64,000 bases of DNA, from assembly GCF_004796535.1 (NCBI RefSeq), contig NZ_SPHY01000008.1:62001-126000 (forward strand). Reading direction: 5' to 3'. The DNA comes from Sphingomonas flavalba. Its GTDB lineage: Bacteria; Pseudomonadota; Alphaproteobacteria; Sphingomonadales; Sphingomonadaceae. The translations under genes and the position numbers were made by a program. Shown in pieces: positions 40,357 through 52,570 of the stretch; positions within the stretch are counted from its first letter, which is position 1, and every line of letters starts with the position of its first letter. The notes under the pieces were generated by a model. It ran no database searches. It saw only the letters and a list, made by a program, of their open reading frames with translations, and was not told the DNA's origin.

Positions 40357-42414
40357 CTACGCCATCTCCAGGATCACCGCGTCCACCGCCAGGCTGTCGC
40401 CGGGGGCGGCGTTGACCGCCTTCACCACCCCGGCCTTCCCGGCGCGCAGGATGTTCTCCATCTTCATCGCCTCGACCACCGCCAGCGGCTGCCCGGCCTC
40501 GACCGAATCGCCGGCCTCGACGTGCAGCGCGATCAGCAGGCCCGGCATCGGGCACAGCAGGAACTTCGACAGGTCGGGCGGGATCTTCTCGATCATGTGG
40601 CGGGCGAGCGGCGCGACATGGCCGGGCAGCACCCGCGCGCCGTGGCTGGCGCCGCGCGTCGTCAGCCGCCAGCCGCCACGCGTCGGGGCGATCCGCACCG
40701 CCAGCGGCACACCGTCGATCTCCGCCTCGACGATGCGGTCGCCCGGCGTATATTCCATCGCCAGCGCCAGCGGGGCGCCGTCAACGGTGATCGCGTCGCC
40801 GGCGATTTCAACCGTCCGGGTCACGCCGCCGATCGTCACCGCCCAGCTGCCCGGCGGCGGCAGGCGGCGGCCGAGCTGGCCGTCGATCCGCCGCGCCCGG
40901 TCGGCCTCGGCGGTGGCGACGAAGGCGGCGATCGCGGACAGCCGGCCCAGCAACGCGGCGTCGGCCGGCGCCCCGGCGAAGCCGTCGGGATATTCCTCGG
41001 CGATGAAACCGGTGGTCAGTTGCCCGGCGCGGAAGCGCGGATGCTGCATCAGCGCCGACAGGAAATCGATATTATGCCCCGGCCCGTCGATCTCGAAGCG
41101 GTCGAGCGCGGCGACCTGAAGGTCGGCCGCCTCATCGCGGGTCGCGCCGTGGGTAATCAGCTTGGCGATCATCGGGTCGTACCAGATCGACACTTCGCCG
41201 CCCTCGGCGACGCCGTCGTCGACCCGCACATACCCCCCGCTGCCGCCGTCGTCGTTTCCGGTCTCACCCCCATCCCCGTCCGTGTCGAGCGAAGGCGAGA
41301 CACCCGCCTGCGACACCACCGGCGGCACATAGCGCACCAGCCGGCCGGTTGACGGCAGGAAACCACGATACGGGTCCTCGGCATAGACCCGGCTTTCGAT
41401 CGCCCAGCCGTCGATGCCGACATCGTCCTGGGTGAAGCCCAGCTTTTCGCCCGCCGCGACCCGGATCATCTGCTCGACCAGGTCGAGGCCGGTGATCGCC
41501 TCGGTCACCGGGTGCTCGACCTGCAGCCGGGTGTTCATCTCCAGGAAGTAGAAGCTCTCGCCGGTCGGGTCGGCGCCGGACACGATCAGCTCGACGGTGC
41601 CGGCGCTGTAATAGCCGACCGCCCTGGCCAGCGCGACGCACTGCTCGCCCATCGCCTGGCGCATCTTCGGGGTGACGAACGGCGACGGCGCTTCCTCGAC
41701 CACTTTCTGGTGCCGGCGCTGGATCGAACATTCGCGCTCGTTCAGATAGACGATATTGCCGTGCTGGTCGCCGAGGATCTGGATCTCGATATGGCGCGGG
41801 CTCTCGATGAATTTCTCGATGAACACCCGGTCGTCGCCAAAGCTGGCCAGCCCCTCGCGCTTGGTCGCCTCGAAGCCCTCGCGCACGTCCTGCTCGGACC
41901 AGGCGAGCCGCATGCCCTTGCCGCCGCCGCCGGCCGACGCTTTCATCATCACCGGATAGCCGATCTCGCCGGCGATGCGGACCGCCGCCTCGGTATCGGC
42001 GATATCGCCCAGATAGCCGGGGACGACGTTGACCCCCGCCGCCTTGGCCAGTTTCTTCGACTCGATCTTGTCGCCCATCGCCGCGATCGCGTTCGGCGGC
42101 GGCCCGATGAAGGCGATGCCTGCCGCGGCGAGCGCCTCGGCAAAGCTGGTCCGTTCCGACAGGAAGCCGTAGCCGGGGTGGACGGCATCCGCGCCCGTCG
42201 CCTTGCACGCGGCGATGATCGCATCGGCGAGCAGATAACTCTCCGCTGCCGCCGGCGGGCCCAGCCGGACGCTCTCGTCGGCCAGCAACACGTGCGGGCT
42301 GCGCGCATCGGCATCGGAATAGACCGCGACGGTCGCGATCCCCATCCGCTTCGCGGTGCGGATCACCCGGCAGGCGATCTCACCCCGGTTTGCAATCAGG
42401 ACTTTCTTGAACAT
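40357..42414 (-). CDS. pccA: propionyl-CoA carboxylase alpha subunit (biotin carboxylase/carrier)
   Basis: 685 residues. It charges biotin with bicarbonate and ATP and carries the carboxyl group to PccB. ATP-grasp biotin carboxylase at 1-445 (MFKKVLIANRGEIACRV, KASAGGGGKGMRLAW, EMNTRLQVEHPVTE), BT linker domain, then the biotin carrier with K651 in VVEAMKMEN. The start 2 nt after the bioB TGA is preferred to an upstream frame opening. Residues about 371-392 (GVSPSLDTDGDGGETGNDDG) are an extra segment encoded by a palindromic repeat-like sequence. Confidence 0.96.
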   Translation of the reverse strand: MFKKVLIANRGEIACRVIRTAKRMGIATVAVYSDADARSPHVLLADESVRLGPPAAAESYLLADAIIAACKATGADAVHPGYGFLSERTSFAEALAAAGIAFIGPPPNAIAAMGDKIESKKLAKAAGVNVVPGYLGDIADTEAAVRIAGEIGYPVMMKASAGGGGKGMRLAWSEQDVREGFEATKREGLASFGDDRVFIEKFIESPRHIEIQILGDQHGNIVYLNERECSIQRRHQKVVEEAPSPFVTPKMRQAMGEQCVALARAVGYYSAGTVELIVSGADPTGESFYFLEMNTRLQVEHPVTEAITGLDLVEQMIRVAAGEKLGFTQDDVGIDGWAIESRVYAEDPYRGFLPSTGRLVRYVPPVVSQAGVSPSLDTDGDGGETGNDDGGSGGYVRVDDGVAEGGEVSIWYDPMIAKLITHGATRDEAADLQVAALDRFEIDGPGHNIDFLSALMQHPRFRAGQLTTGFIAEEYPDGFAGAPADAALLGRLSAIAAFVATAEADRARRIDGQLGRRLPPPGSWAVTIGGVTRTVEIAGDAITVDGAPLALAMEYTPGDRIVEAEIDGVPLAVRIAPTRGGWRLTTRGASHGARVLPGHVAPLARHMIEKIPPDLSKFLLCPMPGLLIALHVEAGDSVEAGQPLAVVEAMKMENILRAGKAGVVKAVNAAPGDSLAVDAVILEMA
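41255..41305 (-). repeat. palindromic repeat-like sequence inserted in frame in pccA
   Basis: Read on the coding strand it contains GTGTCTCGCCTTCGCTCGA and CACGGACGGGGATGGGGG. This resembles the dispersed GTGTCTCGACTTCGCTCGAC sequence that I know from intergenic regions of sphingomonads. GTGTC (41282-41286) and GACAC (41299-41303) form the hairpin base. It keeps the reading frame and adds about 22-30 residues in a surface loop of the biotin carboxylase domain. Confidence 0.65.
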
Positions 42415-42416
42415 TC

Positions 42417-43415
42417 TCACTCCGCCGCCTCGCACACTCGCGCCGGCTCCTCGCCGGCCAGCGGCGCCAGCCCCAGCTTCTCGAACAGCGCGGCGTCGGC
42501 GCTGTCGCCGCGGTTGCCGGTGGTCAGCAGCTTGTCGCCGGTGAAGATGCTGTTCGCCCCCGCCATGAAGCACAAAGCCTGCACCGCCTCGGACATGCTC
42601 TCGCGCCCGGCGGACAGCCGCACCATGCTTTTCGGCATGGTGATCCGCGCCGCCGCCACGGTGCGGACGAACTCGATGTCATCGATCCGGGCGAGCGGTG
42701 TGTCGGCCAGCATGTCGCCCAGCACCGTGCCCTTGACCGGCACCAGCGCGTTCACCGGCACACTTTCCGGATGGCGCGGCAGCGTCGCCAGCGCGTGGAC
42801 GAAGCCGACCCGGTCGGCCCGCGTCTCGCCCATGCCGACGATGCCGCCGCAGCACACGTTGATCCCCGCCGCGCGCACCTGCTCCAGCGTGTCGAGCCGG
42901 TCCTGAAAGGTCCGCGTGGTGATGACGTTGCCGTAATTCTCCGGCGAGGTGTCGATATTGTGGTTGTAATAATCCAGCCCGGCGTCAGCCAGCCGCCGCG
43001 CCTGATCGCCGCTCAGCATGCCCAGCGTCATGCAGGTTTCCATGCCCATGCCCCGCACGCCCTCGACCATCCGGACGATCGCATCCATGTCGCGGTCCTT
43101 GGGGTTGCGCCACGCCGCGCCCATGCAGAAGCGCTGCGATCCTGCCGCCTTGGCCTCGGCGGCGCTGGCCAGCACCGCGTCGACGTCCATCAGCTTTTCC
43201 GCCTTCAGCCCGGTTTCGGCATGCGCGGATTGCGAGCAATAGCCGCAATCCTCCGGGCAGCCACCAGTCTTGATCGACAGCAAGGTGCACAGCTGCACCT
43301 CCCCCGGCGCATGCCATTCGCGGTGCACCGCCTGCGCCCGCCACATCAGCTCGCCGAACGGCAAAACGAACAGCGCGGCGACCTCGTCGCGGCTCCAGTC
43401 GGTACGAACGGTCAT
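42417..43415 (-). CDS. bioB: biotin synthase
   Basis: A 332-residue radical SAM enzyme that adds sulfur to dethiobiotin. The SAM cluster cysteines C53, C57 and C60 lie in [55 protein letters not shown] and the arginine in [11 protein letters not shown] of the second cluster are present. It overlaps scpA by ATGA and precedes pccA by 2 nt, so it is embedded in the propionyl-CoA operon. This placement makes sense because PccA needs covalently bound biotin. Confidence 0.97.
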
Positions 43416-45559
43416 TCGGTGGATTCTCCCTGCCCTTCCGGCGGCATGTTGTGGCCGAGCAGGCGCAGCACATCCTCCGCGCTCTCGATCACATTCGTGC
43501 CTGGCCCATATATACCCGCGACGCCGGCGTTGCGCAGGAATTCATAGTCCTGCGGGGGGATGACGCCGCCCGCCACCACGCGGATGTCCGGACGCCCGGC
43601 CTCGCGCAGCAGGCGGATCAGTTCGGGGATCAGCGTCTTGTGCCCGGCGGCCAGGCTGGACGCGCCGACGACGTCGACATCGCGCTCCAGCGCCAGCACC
43701 AGCGTCTCCTTCGGCGTCTGGAACAGCGGCCCGCTGACAATGTCGAACCCCATGTCGGCATAGGCGGATGCAATGACGTTGGCGCCGCGGTCGTGCCCGT
43801 CCTGGCCCATCTTGGCGATCAGCATCCTGGGCTTGCGCCCGTGCCGCCGTTCGAACGCGTCGATCGCGTCGACAATGCGCGCCCAGCGCCCGTCGCCCTG
43901 ATAGGCGCCGCCATAGACGCCCTTGACCGGGGTCGGCACGGTCGCGTGGCGGCCGAATACATCTTCCATCGCCTGCGAAATCTCGCCCAGCGTCGCCCGC
44001 ACCCGCGCCGCCGCCACCGCCAGCGCCAGCAGGTTGCCGTCGCCCGCCGCCCCGGCGCGCAGCGCGTCGAGCGCCGCCGCGCACGCCGCCGCGTCGCGCA
44101 TCGCCCGCACCTGTTCGATCCGGGCGATCTGGCCGGCGCGCACCGCGACATTGTCGACGTCGAGGATGTCGATGGTATCCTCGTCGGCCAGCCGGTACTT
44201 GTTGACGCCGACGATCACCGCCTCGCCCCGGTCGACGCGGGCCTGGCTGGCGGCGGCGGCCTCCTCGATCATCGCCTTGGGCCAGCCGGCGGCGACCGCC
44301 CTGGCCATGCCGCCTTCCGCCTCGACCCGTTCGATGATCGCCCAAGCCTCGTCATACAGGGCCTGGGTCAGCGCCTCGACGTAATAGGAGCCGCCGAGCG
44401 GATCGACGACCCTGGTGATGCCGGTTTCCTCCTGCAGCACGATCTGGGTGTTGCGGGCGATGCGGGCGGAAAAATCGGTCGGCAGCGCGATCGCCTCGTC
44501 GAGCGCGTTGGTGTGGAGCGACTGGGTGCCGCCCAGCGCCGCCGCCATCGCCTCCACCGTGGTGCGGATGACGTTGTTGTACGGGTCCTGCTCGGTCAGC
44601 GACACGCCCGATGTCTGGCAATGGGTGCGCAGCATCTTCGATCGCTCGCTCTGCGCGCCTAGGTCGGTCATCACCCGGTGCCACAGCTTGCGCGCGGCGC
44701 GCAGCTTGGCCACCTCCATGAAGAAATTCATGCCGATCGCGAAGAAGAAGGACAGCCGGCCGGCAAACGCGTCGATGTCCAGCCCGGACGTCATCGCCGC
44801 CTGCGCATATTCGCGCCCGTCGGCAATGGTGAAGGCCAGCTCCTGCACCTGCGTCGCCCCGGCTTCCTGCATATGGTAGCCGGAAATCGATATGCTGTTG
44901 AATTTCGGCATGTTCGCGGACGTGTAGGCAATGATGTCGGATATGATCCGCATCGACGGCCCCGGCGGGTAGATATAGGTGTTGCGGACCATGAACTCCT
45001 TCAGGATGTCGTTCTGGATGGTCCCGTCCAGCCGGTCCTGCGCAACCCCCTGCTCCTCGCCGGCGACAATGAAGAAGGCGAGGATCGGGATCACCGCGCC
45101 GTTCATCGTCATCGATACCGACATCTCGCCAAGCGGAATGCCGTCGAACAGGATCTTCATGTCCTCGACGCTGTCGATGGCGACGCCGGCCTTGCCGACA
45201 TCGCCGACAACGCGGGGATGGTCGCTGTCGTAGCCGCGGTGGGTCGCCAGGTCGAAGGCGACGGACAGCCCCTTCTGCCCGGCCGCCAGGTTGCGGCGGT
45301 AGAAGGCGTTGGATTCCTCGGCGGTCGAGAAACCGGCGTATTGGCGGATCGTCCACGGCCGCCCGGCGTACATCGACGCGCGCACCCCGCGGGTGAACGG
45401 CGCGAAGCCGGGCAGGCCGGGGTCGATACCGGCGATGTCCTCGGCGGTGTAGAGCGGCTTGACCGCAATCCCCTCCGGCGTCTGCCAGGTCAGGGCGCGG
45501 CCCTTGACCTCCTTGTCGGCCAGCGCGCGCCAGTCGGCCACCGTCGGCTTGCCGCTCAT
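43412..45559 (-). CDS. scpA: methylmalonyl-CoA mutase (B12-dependent)
   Basis: 715 residues. It turns (R)-methylmalonyl-CoA into succinyl-CoA. The TIM-barrel substrate domain ([40 protein letters not shown]) fills about 1-560 and the cobalamin domain the rest; the lower-ligand histidine is H589 in [12 protein letters not shown] (DxHxxG). Single-chain alpha-type length shows it works without a separate beta subunit. Start [10 protein letters not shown] is chosen over an upstream extension. Overlaps bioB by 4 bp and starts 1 bp after the hydratase stop. Confidence 0.97.
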
Positions 45560-45560
45560 C

Positions 45561-46349
45561 TCACTGCCCCTTGAACGCCGCCGGACGCCGGCCGAGGAAG
45601 GCGGTGATCCCCTCGACCGCGTCGGCGCTCGTCCCGGCGATGCGCTGGCTGTCGGCCTCGCCGGCCAGCGCGCTCGCATAATCGCCCTCCAGCGCCGCCG
45701 CCAGCCCGCGCCGCATCAGCCCCAGCGCCAGCGTCGGCCCCGCCGCCAGCCGCGCCGCCAGCGTCAGCGCCTCCTGCGCCAGCGCCGCGTCGTCGACCGC
45801 CTTGTAGATCAGGCCCCAGCTTTCCGCCTGCTCCGCGCCGATCCGCTCGCCGAGCAGCATCATCTGCGCCGCCCGCGCCTTGCCGACCAGCCGGGCGAGC
45901 ATCCACGACGCGCCGCCGTCCGGCACCAGCCCGACGTTGACGAAGGCCTGCAGGAAATAGGCGGAACGCGCGGCGATCGCGAAATCGGCGGCCAGCGCCA
46001 GGCTGCAGCCGATGCCGGCGGCCGGGCCGTTGACCGCCGTCACCACCGGCACCCCCAGCCGCGCGATCTTCAGCAGCGCGGGGTTATAGCTGCGGGTCAG
46101 CGCGCGATAGGCGCCCTCGCCGCCGCTGATCGACTGGCTGCCCTCGCGCCCGGTCAGGTCGGCGCCGGAGCAAAAGGCCCGCCCTTCGCCGGTGATCAGC
46201 ACTGCCCGCGCCCCGTCCAGCCGGTCGAGCGCGTCGCCGATCTCGTCGAACATCGCCGGCGGCGCCGCGTTCAGCCGGTCGGGCCGGTTCAGGGTGATGA
46301 CCAGCGTGTCGCCCTCGCGGCGGGTCACGATCGTTTCGAAACTCGACAT
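45561..46349 (-). CDS. enoyl-CoA hydratase/isomerase (crotonase family)
   Basis: 262 residues from [20 protein letters not shown], with AGGAAAG upstream; the longer frame opening comes from a repeat sequence. Oxyanion-hole segments are AFCSGADL and [20 protein letters not shown]. The usual second catalytic glutamate region is [19 protein letters not shown], the PaaG type where aspartate replaces glutamate, so it may be an isomerase or a PaaG-like enzyme rather than a classic hydratase. In this operon it may help bring odd-chain or branched acyl-CoA to propionyl-CoA. Confidence 0.93.
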
Positions 46350-46376
46350 TCGCTTTCCTGCCTTTTCCCGTTCGTC

Positions 46377-46397
46377 ATGCCGGGCCTGACCCGGCAT
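46377..46397. repeat. short palindrome ATGCCGGG/CCCGGCAT
   Basis: A perfect 8-bp hairpin with a 5-nt loop. CGTCATGCCGGGCCTGACC with CCGGCATC resembles a sequence commonly dispersed between genes in alphaproteobacteria. It lies between mce and the hydratase gene within the operon. Confidence 0.6.
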
Positions 46398-46422
46398 CGC
46401 GCGCACTCGCGTGCCTGTCGGC

Positions 46423-46839
46423 TCAATGCGCCGGCGTCTCCATGATCTCGGTCAGCACCCCGCCCATGTCCTTCGGGTGGACGAAGAACACCGGCGTGCC
46501 GTGCGCGCCGATCCGCGGCGCCCCCAGCACCCGCGCGCCCTTGTCCTCGAACCACGCTTTCGCCGCCTGAATGTCGGGCACCTCGAAGCAGACATGATGC
46601 TGCCCGCCGAGCGGGTTCTTCTCCAGGAATTTCGCGATCGGCGAATCGGCGCCCAGCGGCTCGATCAGCTCGATCTGGCTGTTCGGCGTGTCGATGAAAC
46701 ACACCTTCACCCCCTGCGCCGGCAGGTCGAACGCCTCGCGCACCACCTCCGCCCCCATCACGGCGCGATAGCGCGCGACACTCTCCACGATCGACGGCGT
46801 CGCCACTCCGACATGGTTCAGACGGCCCAGTTTCACCAC
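46423..46839 (-). CDS. mce: methylmalonyl-CoA epimerase
   Basis: 138 residues, glyoxalase/VOC fold. It interconverts (S)- and (R)-methylmalonyl-CoA between the carboxylase and the mutase. MVKLGRLNHVGVATPSIVES holds the first metal histidine, QIELIEPLG the glutamate, GGQHHVCFEVPDI the second histidine and FVHPKDMGGVLTEIME the last glutamate. The ring of genes pccB-mce-scpA-pccA completes the pathway. Confidence 0.97.
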   Translation of the reverse strand: MVKLGRLNHVGVATPSIVESVARYRAVMGAEVVREAFDLPAQGVKVCFIDTPNSQIELIEPLGADSPIAKFLEKNPLGGQHHVCFEVPDIQAAKAWFEDKGARVLGAPRIGAHGTPVFFVHPKDMGGVLTEIMETPAH

Positions 46840-46938: not shown

Positions 46939-47244
46939 TTAACCGTGGACGATATCCTCATACAAATCTTTCCACCCCGGATTGAGCGCCGCGATCAACG
47001 CCAGCTTGCGCGCTCGCGACCCGCCCTTGATCTGCTTCTCGCGCCGGATCGCCGATTCCATGTCCGGCGCCATGTCGTACCAGACCAGCATCTTGCATCC
47101 GTACCGCCGGGTGAACCCGCCAGTCACGCCTTCCCGGTGCTGCCAGGCACGCTGCGGCAGGTTCGACGTCACGCCGGTATACAGCACTCCGCCCGGCCGG
47201 TTCGCCATGATATACACCGCCGGCCACCGCTCCCGCCCGCCCAT
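46939..47244 (-). CDS. GIY-YIG domain endonuclease-like protein (UPF0213 type)
   Basis: 101 residues from MGGRERWPAVYIMANRPGGV. GIY-YIG appears as VYI and YTG (VLYTGVTSNLPQRAWQHREG), followed by FTRRYGCKMLVWYD, the ExxxxREKQIKGGSRARKL helix with the metal glutamate and the final NPGWKDL asparagine. These single-domain proteins are likely nucleases of unknown target. It lies in the propionate operon between mce and pccB, unlike its neighbours in function, and is ringed by four copies of a dispersed repeat. Confidence 0.9.
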   Translation of the reverse strand: MGGRERWPAVYIMANRPGGVLYTGVTSNLPQRAWQHREGVTGGFTRRYGCKMLVWYDMAPDMESAIRREKQIKGGSRARKLALIAALNPGWKDLYEDIVHG

Positions 47245-47269
47245 CACGCCCCCTATTCCCCCGCGCCCC

Positions 47270-47303
47270 ATCCTTGCGAGGCGTCGCGGGCGACGGAGCA
47301 TCC
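47270..47303. repeat. GTCATTGCGAG-type repeat, copy R2 (diverged)
   Basis: ATCCTTGCGAGGCGTCGCGG then GCGACGGAGCATCC. It keeps the general pattern of R1 with changes in both halves. It lies upstream of the GIY-YIG start on the minus strand. Confidence 0.6.
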
Positions 47304-47510: not shown

Positions 47511-49043
47511 TCACAGCGGAATATTGTCGTGCTTCTTCCACGGATTCTCCAGCGCCTTGTTGCGCAGTTTCCGCAGGCCGAGCGCGATGCGGCGGCGGGT
47601 CGAATGCGGCATGATCACCTCGTCGATGAAGCCTTTCGACGCGGCGACGAACGGGTTGGCGAAGCGCGCCTCATACTCGTGGGTCCGCTCGGCGATCTTG
47701 TCGGCATCGCCGATGTCCTGGCGAAAGATGATCTCGACCGCGCCCTTGGCGCCCATCACCGCGATCTCGGCGGTCGGCCAGGCATAGTTCAGGTCGCCGC
47801 GCAGGTGCTTCGACGCCATGACGTCGTAGGCGCCGCCATAGGCCTTGCGGGTGATGACGGTGATCTTCGGCACCGTCGCCTCGGCATAGGCGAACAGCAG
47901 CTTGGCGCCGTTCTTGATGATGCCGTTATGCTCCTGGGCGACGCCGGGCAGGAATCCGGGCACGTCGACGAAGGTGACGATCGGGATGTTGAACGCGTCG
48001 CAGAAGCGGACGAAGCGCCCCGCCTTCTTCGACGCGGCGATGTCGAGGCAGCCGGCGAGCACCATCGGCTGATTGGCGACGATGCCGACGCTGCGCCCCT
48101 CGATCCGGCCGAATCCGGTCAGGATATTGGCGGCGTGGGCGGGCTGGACCTCGAAGAAATCGCCTTCGTCGACGACCTTGCGGATCAGCTCGCCCATGTC
48201 ATAGGGCTGGTTGGCGCTGGCCGGGATCAGCGTGTCCAGGCTGTCTTCGATCCGGTCCCAGGCGTCCGCAGTCGGCCGCTCCGGCACCGCCTCGCGGTTG
48301 GACGCGGGCAGGAAGCCGACGAAGGCGCGGGTGGCGAGCAGCGCCTCGATGTCGTTCTCGAACGCGACGTCGGCGACCCCCGACCGGGTGGTGTGGGTGA
48401 CGGCGCCGCCTAGCTCCTCTTGCGTCACGACTTCGTTGGTAACCGTCTTGACCACGTCCGGCCCGGTGACGAACATGTAGGAACTGTCCTTCACCATGAA
48501 GATGAAGTCGGTCATCGCCGGCGAATAGACCGCGCCGCCGGCGCACGGCCCCATGATCACGCTGATCTGCGGCACCACGCCGGATGCCAGCACGTTCCTC
48601 TGGAACACCTCGGCATAGCCGCCGAGCGAGGCCACGCCTTCCTGGATGCGGGCACCGCCCGAATCGTTCAGGCCGATGACCGGGGCGCCGACCTTCATCG
48701 CCATGTCCATGATCTTGCAGATCTTCTGCGCGTGCCGCTCGCTCAGCGAGCCGCCGAACACGGTGAAATCCTGCGAGAACACATAGACCAGCCGGCCGTC
48801 GATCGTGCCCGATCCGGTGACGACGCCGTCGCCGGGGACGACCTGCGCCGGCATGCCGAAATCGACGCAGTTATGCTCGACATACATGTCGAGCTCCTCG
48901 AAGCTGCCTTCGTCGAGCAGCACCTGCACCCGTTCGCGCGCCGTCAGCTTGCCCTTGGCGTGCTGGGCGTCGATGCGTTTCTGCCCGCCGCCGAGCAGCG
49001 CCTGCGCACGGCGTTCGGCCAACTGGTCGATAATCGTCTGCAT
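47511..49043 (-). CDS. pccB: propionyl-CoA carboxylase beta subunit (carboxyltransferase)
   Basis: 510 residues. It moves the carboxyl group from biotin to propionyl-CoA to give (S)-methylmalonyl-CoA. Two crotonase-like halves: N-terminal [20 protein letters not shown] and [21 protein letters not shown]-terminal [20 protein letters not shown] and [19 protein letters not shown]. The aspartate that sets propionyl specificity lies in the [10 protein letters not shown] region typical of PccB. GGAGAAGCC precedes the chosen ATG. It heads the leftward cluster and faces the scfR-like gene. Confidence 0.96.
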
Positions 49044-49091
49044 GGCTTCTCCACCCTTCGCCAGCGTGCCTCTTTCCAGCGAAAGCACGGC

Positions 49092-49136
49092 GTTGCAAAT
49101 GTGAACTTGCAAAGTTGCGAAGGGTCGATTTGCAAA
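49092..49136. promoter_or_regulatory. cluster of four TTTGCAAA-like half-sites, operator of pccB/scfR
   Basis: GTTGCAAA (49092-49099), CTTGCAAA (49106-49113), GTTGCGAA (49114-49121) and TTTGCAAA (49129-49136) lie in the divergent promoter region. TTTGCAAA pairs are the known sites of the related PccR of Rhodobacter, and a TTTGCAAA core is bound by RamB of corynebacteria. Spacing here (14, 8 and 15 bp between starts) differs from the published PccR pair. Confidence 0.7.
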
Positions 49137-49142
49137 CTATCC

Positions 49143-50558
49143 TTGCCGGGTTTCGACAGTGAGTTCACCCTGATAACCAAGCAGAGACTCTTCGCCGGCG
49201 AACGCCTCCGCGCCATCCGCCGCCGCGCCGGCCTCGGCCAGGCTGCGATGGCCGCCCGCCTCGGCATCTCGGTCAGCTATCTGAGCCAGATCGAGAATGA
49301 CGATCGCCCGCTGACCTCCGCCGTCCTCGCCGCCCTCGCCCGCCATCATCCGTTCGACCTCGCCGCGATCGAGGCGGACCAGCCGACCCGCCGCTTCGCC
49401 GCCGCCCGCGCCGCGCTTGATGATCCGGTGTTCGCCGGCTCCGCCCTCGCTCCCGACGCGCTCGCCCGCATCGTCGAGCAGCAGCCCGCCTTCGCCGACC
49501 GCTTCATCGCCCTCCACGCCGCCTACCGCCGCGCCGAGGAACGGCTGCAGATGGTCGACGAGGGGCTGGAGAGCGGCGGCGGCCGCCTGCCGTGGGAAGA
49601 GGTGCGCGACTGGTTTCACGAAGCCGGCAACTATGTCGACCTGCTCGACCGGGGCGCCGAGGCACTGGCCGCCCGCCTCGGCGACGGCGACCACGCGCTG
49701 CGCGACGCGCTCGCCGAACGCGGCATCGCGGTCGCCGCGACCGACGATCCGGCAACGCTGCGCCGGCTCGACCGCGCCGGCGGCCGTCTCGCCGTCTCCG
49801 CCGCGCTGCCGGCGGAGAGCCGCCGCTTCATGCTCGCCCATCAACTGGCGGCGATCGCCTTTGCCGAGCCGATCGCGGCAATCGCCGAAAGCGCGGCGCT
49901 GCGCTCGGCAGAGGCCCGGCGGCTGCTCGCCGTCGGCCTCGCCAACTATGCCGCCGGCGCGCTGCTGATGCCCTATGAACGGTTCCGCGCCGCCGCCCGC
50001 GCCTTCCGCCACGACATCGACCGGCTGCGCCAGCGTTTCGCGGTCAGCTTCGAACAGGCATGCCACCGCCTGTCGACCCTCCAGCGCCCCGGCGCGCGCG
50101 GGGTGCCGATGTTCTTCTGCCGGGTCGACATGGCCGGCAACATCACCAAGCGGCACAGCGCCACCCGCCTGCAGTTCGCCCGTTTCGGCGGCGCCTGCCC
50201 GCTCTGGGCGGTGCACGAGGCGGTCGCCATCCCAGACCGGATCATGACCCAGCTTGTCGAAACGCCGGACGGGGTGCGCTACGTCTCAATGGCCAAAGGG
50301 CTGGTCAAGGCATCGGGCAGCTTCGCCCGCGCCCCGCGCCGCTACGCCGTCGCGCTGGGCTGCGAGGCGGCGCATGCCCGCGATTTCGTCTATGCCGACG
50401 CGATCGATGTCGACGGGCCGGGCGCCGCGACGCCGATCGGCATCTCCTGCCGCCTCTGCCCGCGCCCCGACTGCGACCAGCGCGCCTTCCCGCCCGCCGA
50501 CCGCGCGATCGCGGTCGATCCGGACATCCGGCGGATCGTGCCCTACCGGCTCGGCTGA
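49143..50558 (+). CDS. ScfR/PccR-type short-chain acyl-CoA regulator, non-ATG start
   Basis: 471 residues from a TTG at 49143. XRE helix-turn-helix ([20 protein letters not shown], about residues 25-45), then IrrE/DUF955-like middle and a DUF2083-type C-terminal domain with [18 protein letters not shown]. This is the family of PccR, MccR and RamB, which sense acyl-CoA and control propionyl-CoA and acetate genes. No ATG or GTG fits just before the conserved [15 protein letters not shown] at 49101 lies inside the operator, and CTG 49167 and ATA 49170 are closer still. Start is unsure. Confidence 0.88.
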
Positions 50559-50629
50559 AATCCCGGATCGGGCTTGCGTTTCCCTATCGCCGCCGCGCAA
50601 TATCCGCGGCGATCCGATCGGGGGAAGGC

Positions 50630-52570
<1,941 letters not shown>

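Follow-up and report, generated by a model that had tools for sequence, protein, structure and literature searches.

Between pccB and the divergently oriented gene for a regulator of the ScfR type (pccR) in Sphingomonas flavalba lies a composite element of 42 bp which we interpret, with a probability of about three in four, as the shared operator of a sphingomonad PccR together with two divergent promoters under its control. The element was found in a stretch of 64,000 nucleotides (contig NZ_SPHY01000008.1, positions 62,001 to 126,000), referred to here as the window. Judged by its sequence, it appears to be a real PccR operator, common within a single family, the Sphingomonadaceae, and with a geometry unlike that of the known pairs. 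The site and its partners are well supported by sequence comparison. PccR binding, its ligand, the polarity of the response, autorepression, the pccB promoter and pccB activation are what we infer from studies of RamB (accessible text of PMC10370305) and PrpR (accessible text of PMC6765138) and from what Carter and Alber (2015) reportedly found.

Table 1. Features of the pccB-pccR region and extra copies of the element. Positions are those of the window unless a locus is named. Row counts refer to 80 rows, the window and 79 relatives drawn from the top 80 among 564 confirmed relatives of the regulator.
Feature	Position	Strand	Basis or remark
pccA, biotin carboxylase subunit with PCC_BT domain	40357..42573	-	Pfam; true start probably within frame
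bioB-like biotin synthase	42417..43415	-	Pfam Radical_SAM + BATS
mut, methylmalonyl-CoA mutase	43412..45562	-	Pfam, NCBIfam; start not settled, ORF extends to 45679
ech, enoyl-CoA hydratase-like gene	45561..46406	-	Pfam ECH_1
mce, methylmalonyl-CoA epimerase	46423..46839	-	NCBIfam TIGR03081 above cut-off
GIY-YIG ORF between pccB and mce	46939-47301	-	domain match
pccB, carboxyltransferase subunit of propionyl-CoA carboxylase, predicted target	47511..49043	-	Pfam Carboxyl_trans
Moderately conserved block, possible pccB start-site region	49067..49077	-	identity 0.45; column counts, 79 rows
Predicted composite operator, 42 bp, GCAAATGYGAA-N-TTGCRAA-N-TTGCRAA-N7-TTTGCRAA	49095..49136	+	conserved; window copy has 0 mismatches
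Conserved 11-mer, GCAAATGTGAA	49095..49105	+	includes 3' part of the earlier box 1 (49092-49099)
Candidate pccB -35, TTCACA in 11-mer	49100..49105	-	TTCACA in 56, TTCGCA in 16 of 80 rows
Box 2, CTTGCAAA	49106..49113	+	<=2 mismatches to TTTGCRAA in 80/80 rows
Box 3, GTTGCGAA	49114..49121	+	<=2 mismatches to TTTGCRAA in 78/80 rows
Predicted pccR -35, TTGCGA within box 3	49115-49120	+	TTGCGA or TTGCAA in 70/80 rows
Box 4, TTTGCAAA	49129..49136	+	<=1 mismatch to TTTGCRAA in 79/80 rows
Predicted pccR -10, TATCCT	49138..49143	+	17 bp from box-3 -35
pccR, HTH + IrrE-like + ScfRs regulator	49143..50558	+	Pfam; PDB PrpR match; start uncertain
acs, acetate--CoA ligase, downstream of pccR	50630..52567	+	NCBIfam TIGR02188 above cut-off; no box ahead
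Extra element copy before etfB	L155 2890-2931		
Extra element copy between TonB receptor and ferredoxin-NADP reductase-like gene	L156 2976-3017		

The original prediction placed four half-sites here. The four octamers (GTTGCAAA at 49092, CTTGCAAA at 49106, GTTGCGAA at 49114 and TTTGCAAA at 49129) are indeed present, with one, one, two and no changes from TTTGCAAA and with starts 14, 8 and 15 bp apart, but the first is not conserved. A half-site is not the right term for TTTGCAAA, which is itself a complete palindrome, and the element is composed of three TTTGCRAA boxes and one different motif, an 11-mer, rather than of four equivalent copies. In the genome as a whole (3,071,096 bases in 35 contigs), direct TTGCRAA pairs no more than 20 bp apart occur here, as three overlapping matches, and once elsewhere, with X4 spacing, inside a frame of 941 aa that appears valS-like by eye. 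Exact copies of TTTGCAAA number six in all: four of the other five lie within long open frames, one of these the valS-like frame, and the fifth (L205) stands just ahead of a frame which on reading is predicted to be oxygenase-like, where further frames overlap. Considered as further targets, these sites were rejected. As had been stated earlier, no site precedes acs, with no octamer at up to two mismatches in 50520-50640. A search of Rfam with 48900-49300 gave no RNA element match up to E 1.

For the study of conservation, 564 confirmed relatives of the regulator were reduced to the 80 best. One (L064), which begins at the gene, was dropped, giving 79 relatives and, with the window, 80 rows; record titles are mostly Sphingomonadales, a few being just Proteobacteria or uncultured. 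For each row the best match was taken from up to 600 bases before the regulator match or from within its first 60. The element is found upstream of the regulator in 80/80 rows, with 25-37 of 37 consensus positions, where 400 shuffles reach no more than 21 and 80 decoy stretches taken from within pccR no more than 19, and pccB lies divergently upstream in 79/79 relatives. Because the consensus was built from the same 80 loci in which it was counted, these counts are not independent of it, and the family scan described below is the better test. Mean pairwise identity in the 80 rows is 0.86 for the element, 0.36 for its N7 spacer, 0.39 for the predicted -10, mostly 0.27-0.33 for the flanks and 0.45 for the block on the pccB side.

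Within the element, boxes 2, 3 and 4 match TTTGCRAA at up to two mismatches in 80, 78 and 79 of the 80 rows, A or G being accepted at the sixth base throughout, while the octamer previously taken as box 1 does so in 33/80 and at up to one mismatch in 10/80. The idea of four equal TTTGCAAA copies was therefore rejected for box 1, which is poorly kept. In its place, the 80 rows carry the 11-mer as GCAAATGTGAA (44), GCAAATGCGAA (14), TCCAATGTGAA (12) or TCCAATGCGAA (2), so that 58/80 read GCAAATGYGAA and 14/80 TCCAATGYGAA. Box 3 is absent in a few species (including L028, L164 and L167), where the distance from box 2 to box 4 stays at 23 bp. By eye, several Sphingopyxis-type loci (L046, L049, L059) also contain palindromic GC-rich repeats of the CTCCCCGNCACGGGGAG type between the element and the regulator.

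Of 149 genomes sampled from the family, 31 have the strict element. Each of them belongs to the 46 genomes that encode a regulator ortholog of at least 58% identity (one of these orthologs is a fragment), and it occurs in none of the 103 without such an ortholog. For 12 of the 15 orthologs without a strict match, a degenerate element is kept at 4-8 mismatches, where shuffle minima are 12-14; the other three (L158, L159 and L171, at 15, 14 and 11 mismatches) have no element that exceeds the shuffles. In 11 of these 15 loci pccB was detected next to the ortholog. One genome (G427, locus L169) has the regulator and a degenerate element, yet no pccB match at E 1e-150. In a broader sample, the element at up to three mismatches occurs in 2/385 Alphaproteobacteria, both from the family of the window, and hence in 0/380 outside it; the exact three-box pattern occurs in 5/118 genomes of the order, with 0/83 outside the family. 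pccB is adjacent in six of 28 non-family ortholog loci scanned, and one of these (L177) has a box pair at 12 bp (X4).

On sequence criteria, the regulator is an ScfR protein of the PccR type. Its domains, in the order HTH of the XRE type (PF13560/PF01381), IrrE-like (PF06114) and ScfRs (PF09856), all score above the Pfam cut-offs, and it matches PrpR in PDB at E 2e-78 (the solved structures aligned are 6cz6, 6cyy, 6cyj and 6d2s). Four Cys of the PrpR C-terminal domain are kept in the alignment, and LPWEEVR aligns with MPFEEVR of PrpR, with Trp at the ligand-selecting F155 of the M. tuberculosis protein, a number deduced from construct length. Of the features of PccR proteins, the three domains, this Trp, an adjacent pccB and upstream boxes of the TTTGCAAA type are all present; the X4-spaced pair, reportedly 12 bp start to start, is replaced by the 14/8/15 arrangement. 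The R. sphaeroides PccR also has Trp at PrpR position 155 (accessible text of PMC6765138). Against the RamB model NCBIfam NF038139 the regulator scores 399.4 bits, under the curated cut-off of 700 bits, and its gene adjoins pccB and acs, not glyoxylate-cycle genes. On the minus strand, divergent from pccR, the order is pccB, the GIY-YIG ORF, mce, ech, mut, the bioB-like gene and pccA, and the genes from pccB to pccA may form one operon. The best NCBIfam model for pccB is methylmalonyl-CoA decarboxylase alpha, below cut-off, so the name also rests on the pathway neighbours. The other frames around 46939-47301 look, from their peptide signature, like what we take to be a short interspersed repeat. 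The earlier suggestion that the regulator likely controls pccB and itself thus gains support from the conserved element and divergent pccB in the aligned rows, from the occurrence of the strict element only with the regulator in the family sample, and from these PccR hallmarks.

The element overlaps sequences resembling promoters. A TA exactly 17 bp past the TTGCRA of box 3 is present in 51 of the 80 rows, while other spacings from 9 to 36 bp give it in 0-7; it is missing in 29 rows, including four (L021, L066, L078 and L083) in which the sole start codon found is at or before the -10 position. Of the 51 rows with TA, 17 have the nearest start codon 5-8 nt past the hexamer (nine of them at exactly 6), the distance that a leaderless mRNA would show, and the pccR transcript would be of this kind in some relatives; most of the other rows have this codon 9 to 158 nt past the hexamer. 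Start codons were called by a simple motif rule; it failed in L060, and its calls for at least L043 and L074 are misplaced. The pair of the window itself, TTGCGA-17-TATCCT, has 8 of 12 consensus bases and falls under the threshold of a generic sigma-70 promoter scan, which found no promoter. Among in-frame starts, the TTG at 49143 overlaps the predicted -10, and the TTG at 49107 and GTG at 49101 precede it. From the predicted -10 up to the conserved part of pccR there is no in-frame ATG, GTG or TTG; four aligned relatives begin near 49170-49176, and where they have ATG the window reads CTG or ATA. In the window, therefore, either the pccR promoter or the start codon has been misread.

On the pccB side, TTCRCA of the 11-mer is a possible -35. 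No clear -10 was found at spacings of 10 to 33 bp: xAxxxT occurs in 13 and 18 of the 80 rows at 15 and 16 bp and also in 13 and 19 at 29 and 31 bp. Within the moderately conserved block, position 49074 is a conserved T (minus-strand A), kept in 91% of the 79 rows counted. In the accessible literature searched, no paper deals jointly with propionyl-CoA carboxylase, sphingomonads and transcription start sites.

These positions suggest how the element could work. Box 3 would supply the -35 hexamer of the pccR promoter, with box 4 within its -35/-10 spacer; PccR on boxes 3 and 4 would consequently block its own promoter and should shut off pccR. On the minus strand, the 11-mer and box 2 would stand at the likely -35 region of pccB, a place from which PccR carrying a propionyl-CoA-type ligand should activate the gene cluster pccB-mce-ech-mut-bioB-pccA.

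Three other explanations of the element were considered. That a short AT-rich word has clustered by chance in this GC-rich genome has next to no probability: single octamers are not rare, with 5 matches at up to one mismatch in the window against 5.09 expected, but the cluster is the sole 45-bp stretch of the 64 kb with four matches at up to two mismatches, and in 40 simulated sequences of the same length (first-order Markov) no 45-bp stretch reached four matches (39 peaked at two and one at three). Since the pattern is in addition kept in every one of the 80 rows, chance was rejected on both simulation and conservation. A reading in which the conservation reflects mainly two overlapping divergent RNA polymerase promoters, the repeats being a by-product and the regulator acting elsewhere, would account for the -35-like hexamers in box 3 (TTGCRA) and the 11-mer (TTCRCA) and for the TA at 17 bp from box 3. 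We consider it quite unlikely, given that the element is conserved far above its -10, that box 4 is kept despite its place in a promoter spacer, that the element tracks the regulator in the family sample, and that copies stand before unrelated genes.

The third explanation, hardly more probable than the promoter reading, is that the element is the site of another ScfR protein, RamB-like, or is common to both, in which case pccB would answer to acetate or glyoxylate status. The genome does carry one other ScfR match, with the same domains, 40% identical to pccR and beside isocitrate lyase, and crosstalk between PrpR and RamB at TTTGC(A/G)AA sites is described in M. tuberculosis (accessible text of PMC6765138). 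This paralog, at 322.4 bits also under the cut-off of the RamB model, is best read as RamB by its isocitrate lyase neighbour. Its own divergent region with isocitrate lyase has no TTGCRAA pair and, by eye, contains TGTAAAT-type repeats instead, and none of the 52 family genomes whose only ScfR is of lower identity (at most 45%, E at most 1e-60) has the strict element; both points argue against a RamB-like protein as the reader of the element. The repeats themselves (L090 1400-1500, contig C23, TGTAAATT-type) are a possible class 2 RamB site.

For Rhodobacter (Cereibacter) sphaeroides, Carter and Alber in 2015 reportedly described a PccR operator of the form TTTGCAAA-X4-TTTGCAAA upstream of pccB. 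The two systems share an ScfR regulator, pccB as target and TTTGCAAA boxes. They differ in that the R. sphaeroides pair is reportedly 12 bp start to start, whereas the present element joins three boxes, spaced 8 and 15 bp, to an 11-mer, and in that it is contained within 42 bp, between divergent genes, and overlaps the predicted promoter of the regulator. The earlier suggestion of additional sites and of a different spacing thus holds against the X4 pair as reported. The M. tuberculosis PrpR site, TTTGCAAA-N1-TTTGCgAA between prpR and prpD (accessible text of PMC6765138), has the same box, a reader of the same protein family and a similar place between regulator and pathway gene, but it consists of two boxes at 9 bp and serves the methylcitrate cycle, not the methylmalonyl-CoA pathway. 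In Paracoccus denitrificans, a class 2 RamB site with two boxes and an 18-bp spacer lies upstream of the glyoxylate-cycle operon and activates it (accessible text of PMC10370305). It too involves a family member acting from two long-spaced boxes, with another target and another spacing; the spacer between boxes 2 and 4 here is 15 bp. Rhizorhabdus wittichii MPO218 is also a sphingomonad, and its pcc region has a pccB operon with an adjacent, hypothetical pccR; the passages on it describe no operator, and "motif" has 0 matches in the main text (PMC9195938). We found no sphingomonad PccR operator in the accessible part of the literature searched.

ScfR regulators with the same box thus appear to read differing spacings, namely 9 bp for PrpR, a reported 12 bp, and 8, 15 and 23 bp here, which makes their assembly on DNA directly testable. 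For propionyl-CoA use in sphingomonads, the element also provides an operator map that is precise and lends itself to mutation. In one sphingomonad strain, a pccB mutant grows poorly on ibuprofen (accessible text of PMC9195938).

L158 and L159 represent two species of a single genus in which pccB has become separated from the regulator gene, the two being on different contigs, probably as the result of one evolutionary event. The separated pccB genes keep the 11-mer as GCAAATGTRA(A/T), unchanged in one species and altered at two positions in the other, together with box 2 (TTTGCAAA, 14 bp on); boxes 3 and 4 are not found there in standard form. Upstream of the separated regulator, one species has TTTGCAAA-N7-TTTGCAAG, the spacing of boxes 3 and 4, and the other has TTTGCAAA and a weak second copy 16 bp on. 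The separation would fit an element made of a pccB half (11-mer and box 2) and a pccR half. Extra copies also occur: in G411 and G493 elements in the pccB orientation stand between sucC and etfB, and a further one in G411 lies between the TonB receptor and the ferredoxin-NADP reductase-like gene. Among 30 etfB loci read, three from three genera (L208, L211 and L214) have an element at 0-5 mismatches; etfB of the genome of the window has none (best 17 mismatches). These copies raise the possibility of a wider regulon.

We tentatively propose, as a fuller account that has somewhat less than an even chance of being right, that in the Sphingomonadaceae a single 42-bp PccR operator serves as both control site and promoter lock, with a partly leaderless transcript and one complex setting pcc and pccR in opposite directions. 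As a module it would be portable, to etfB in three genera and to the TonB and ferredoxin-NADP reductase-like genes, and would be split where pccB and pccR are separated. A block like that at 49067..49077 is also present downstream of the element before etfB in L155.
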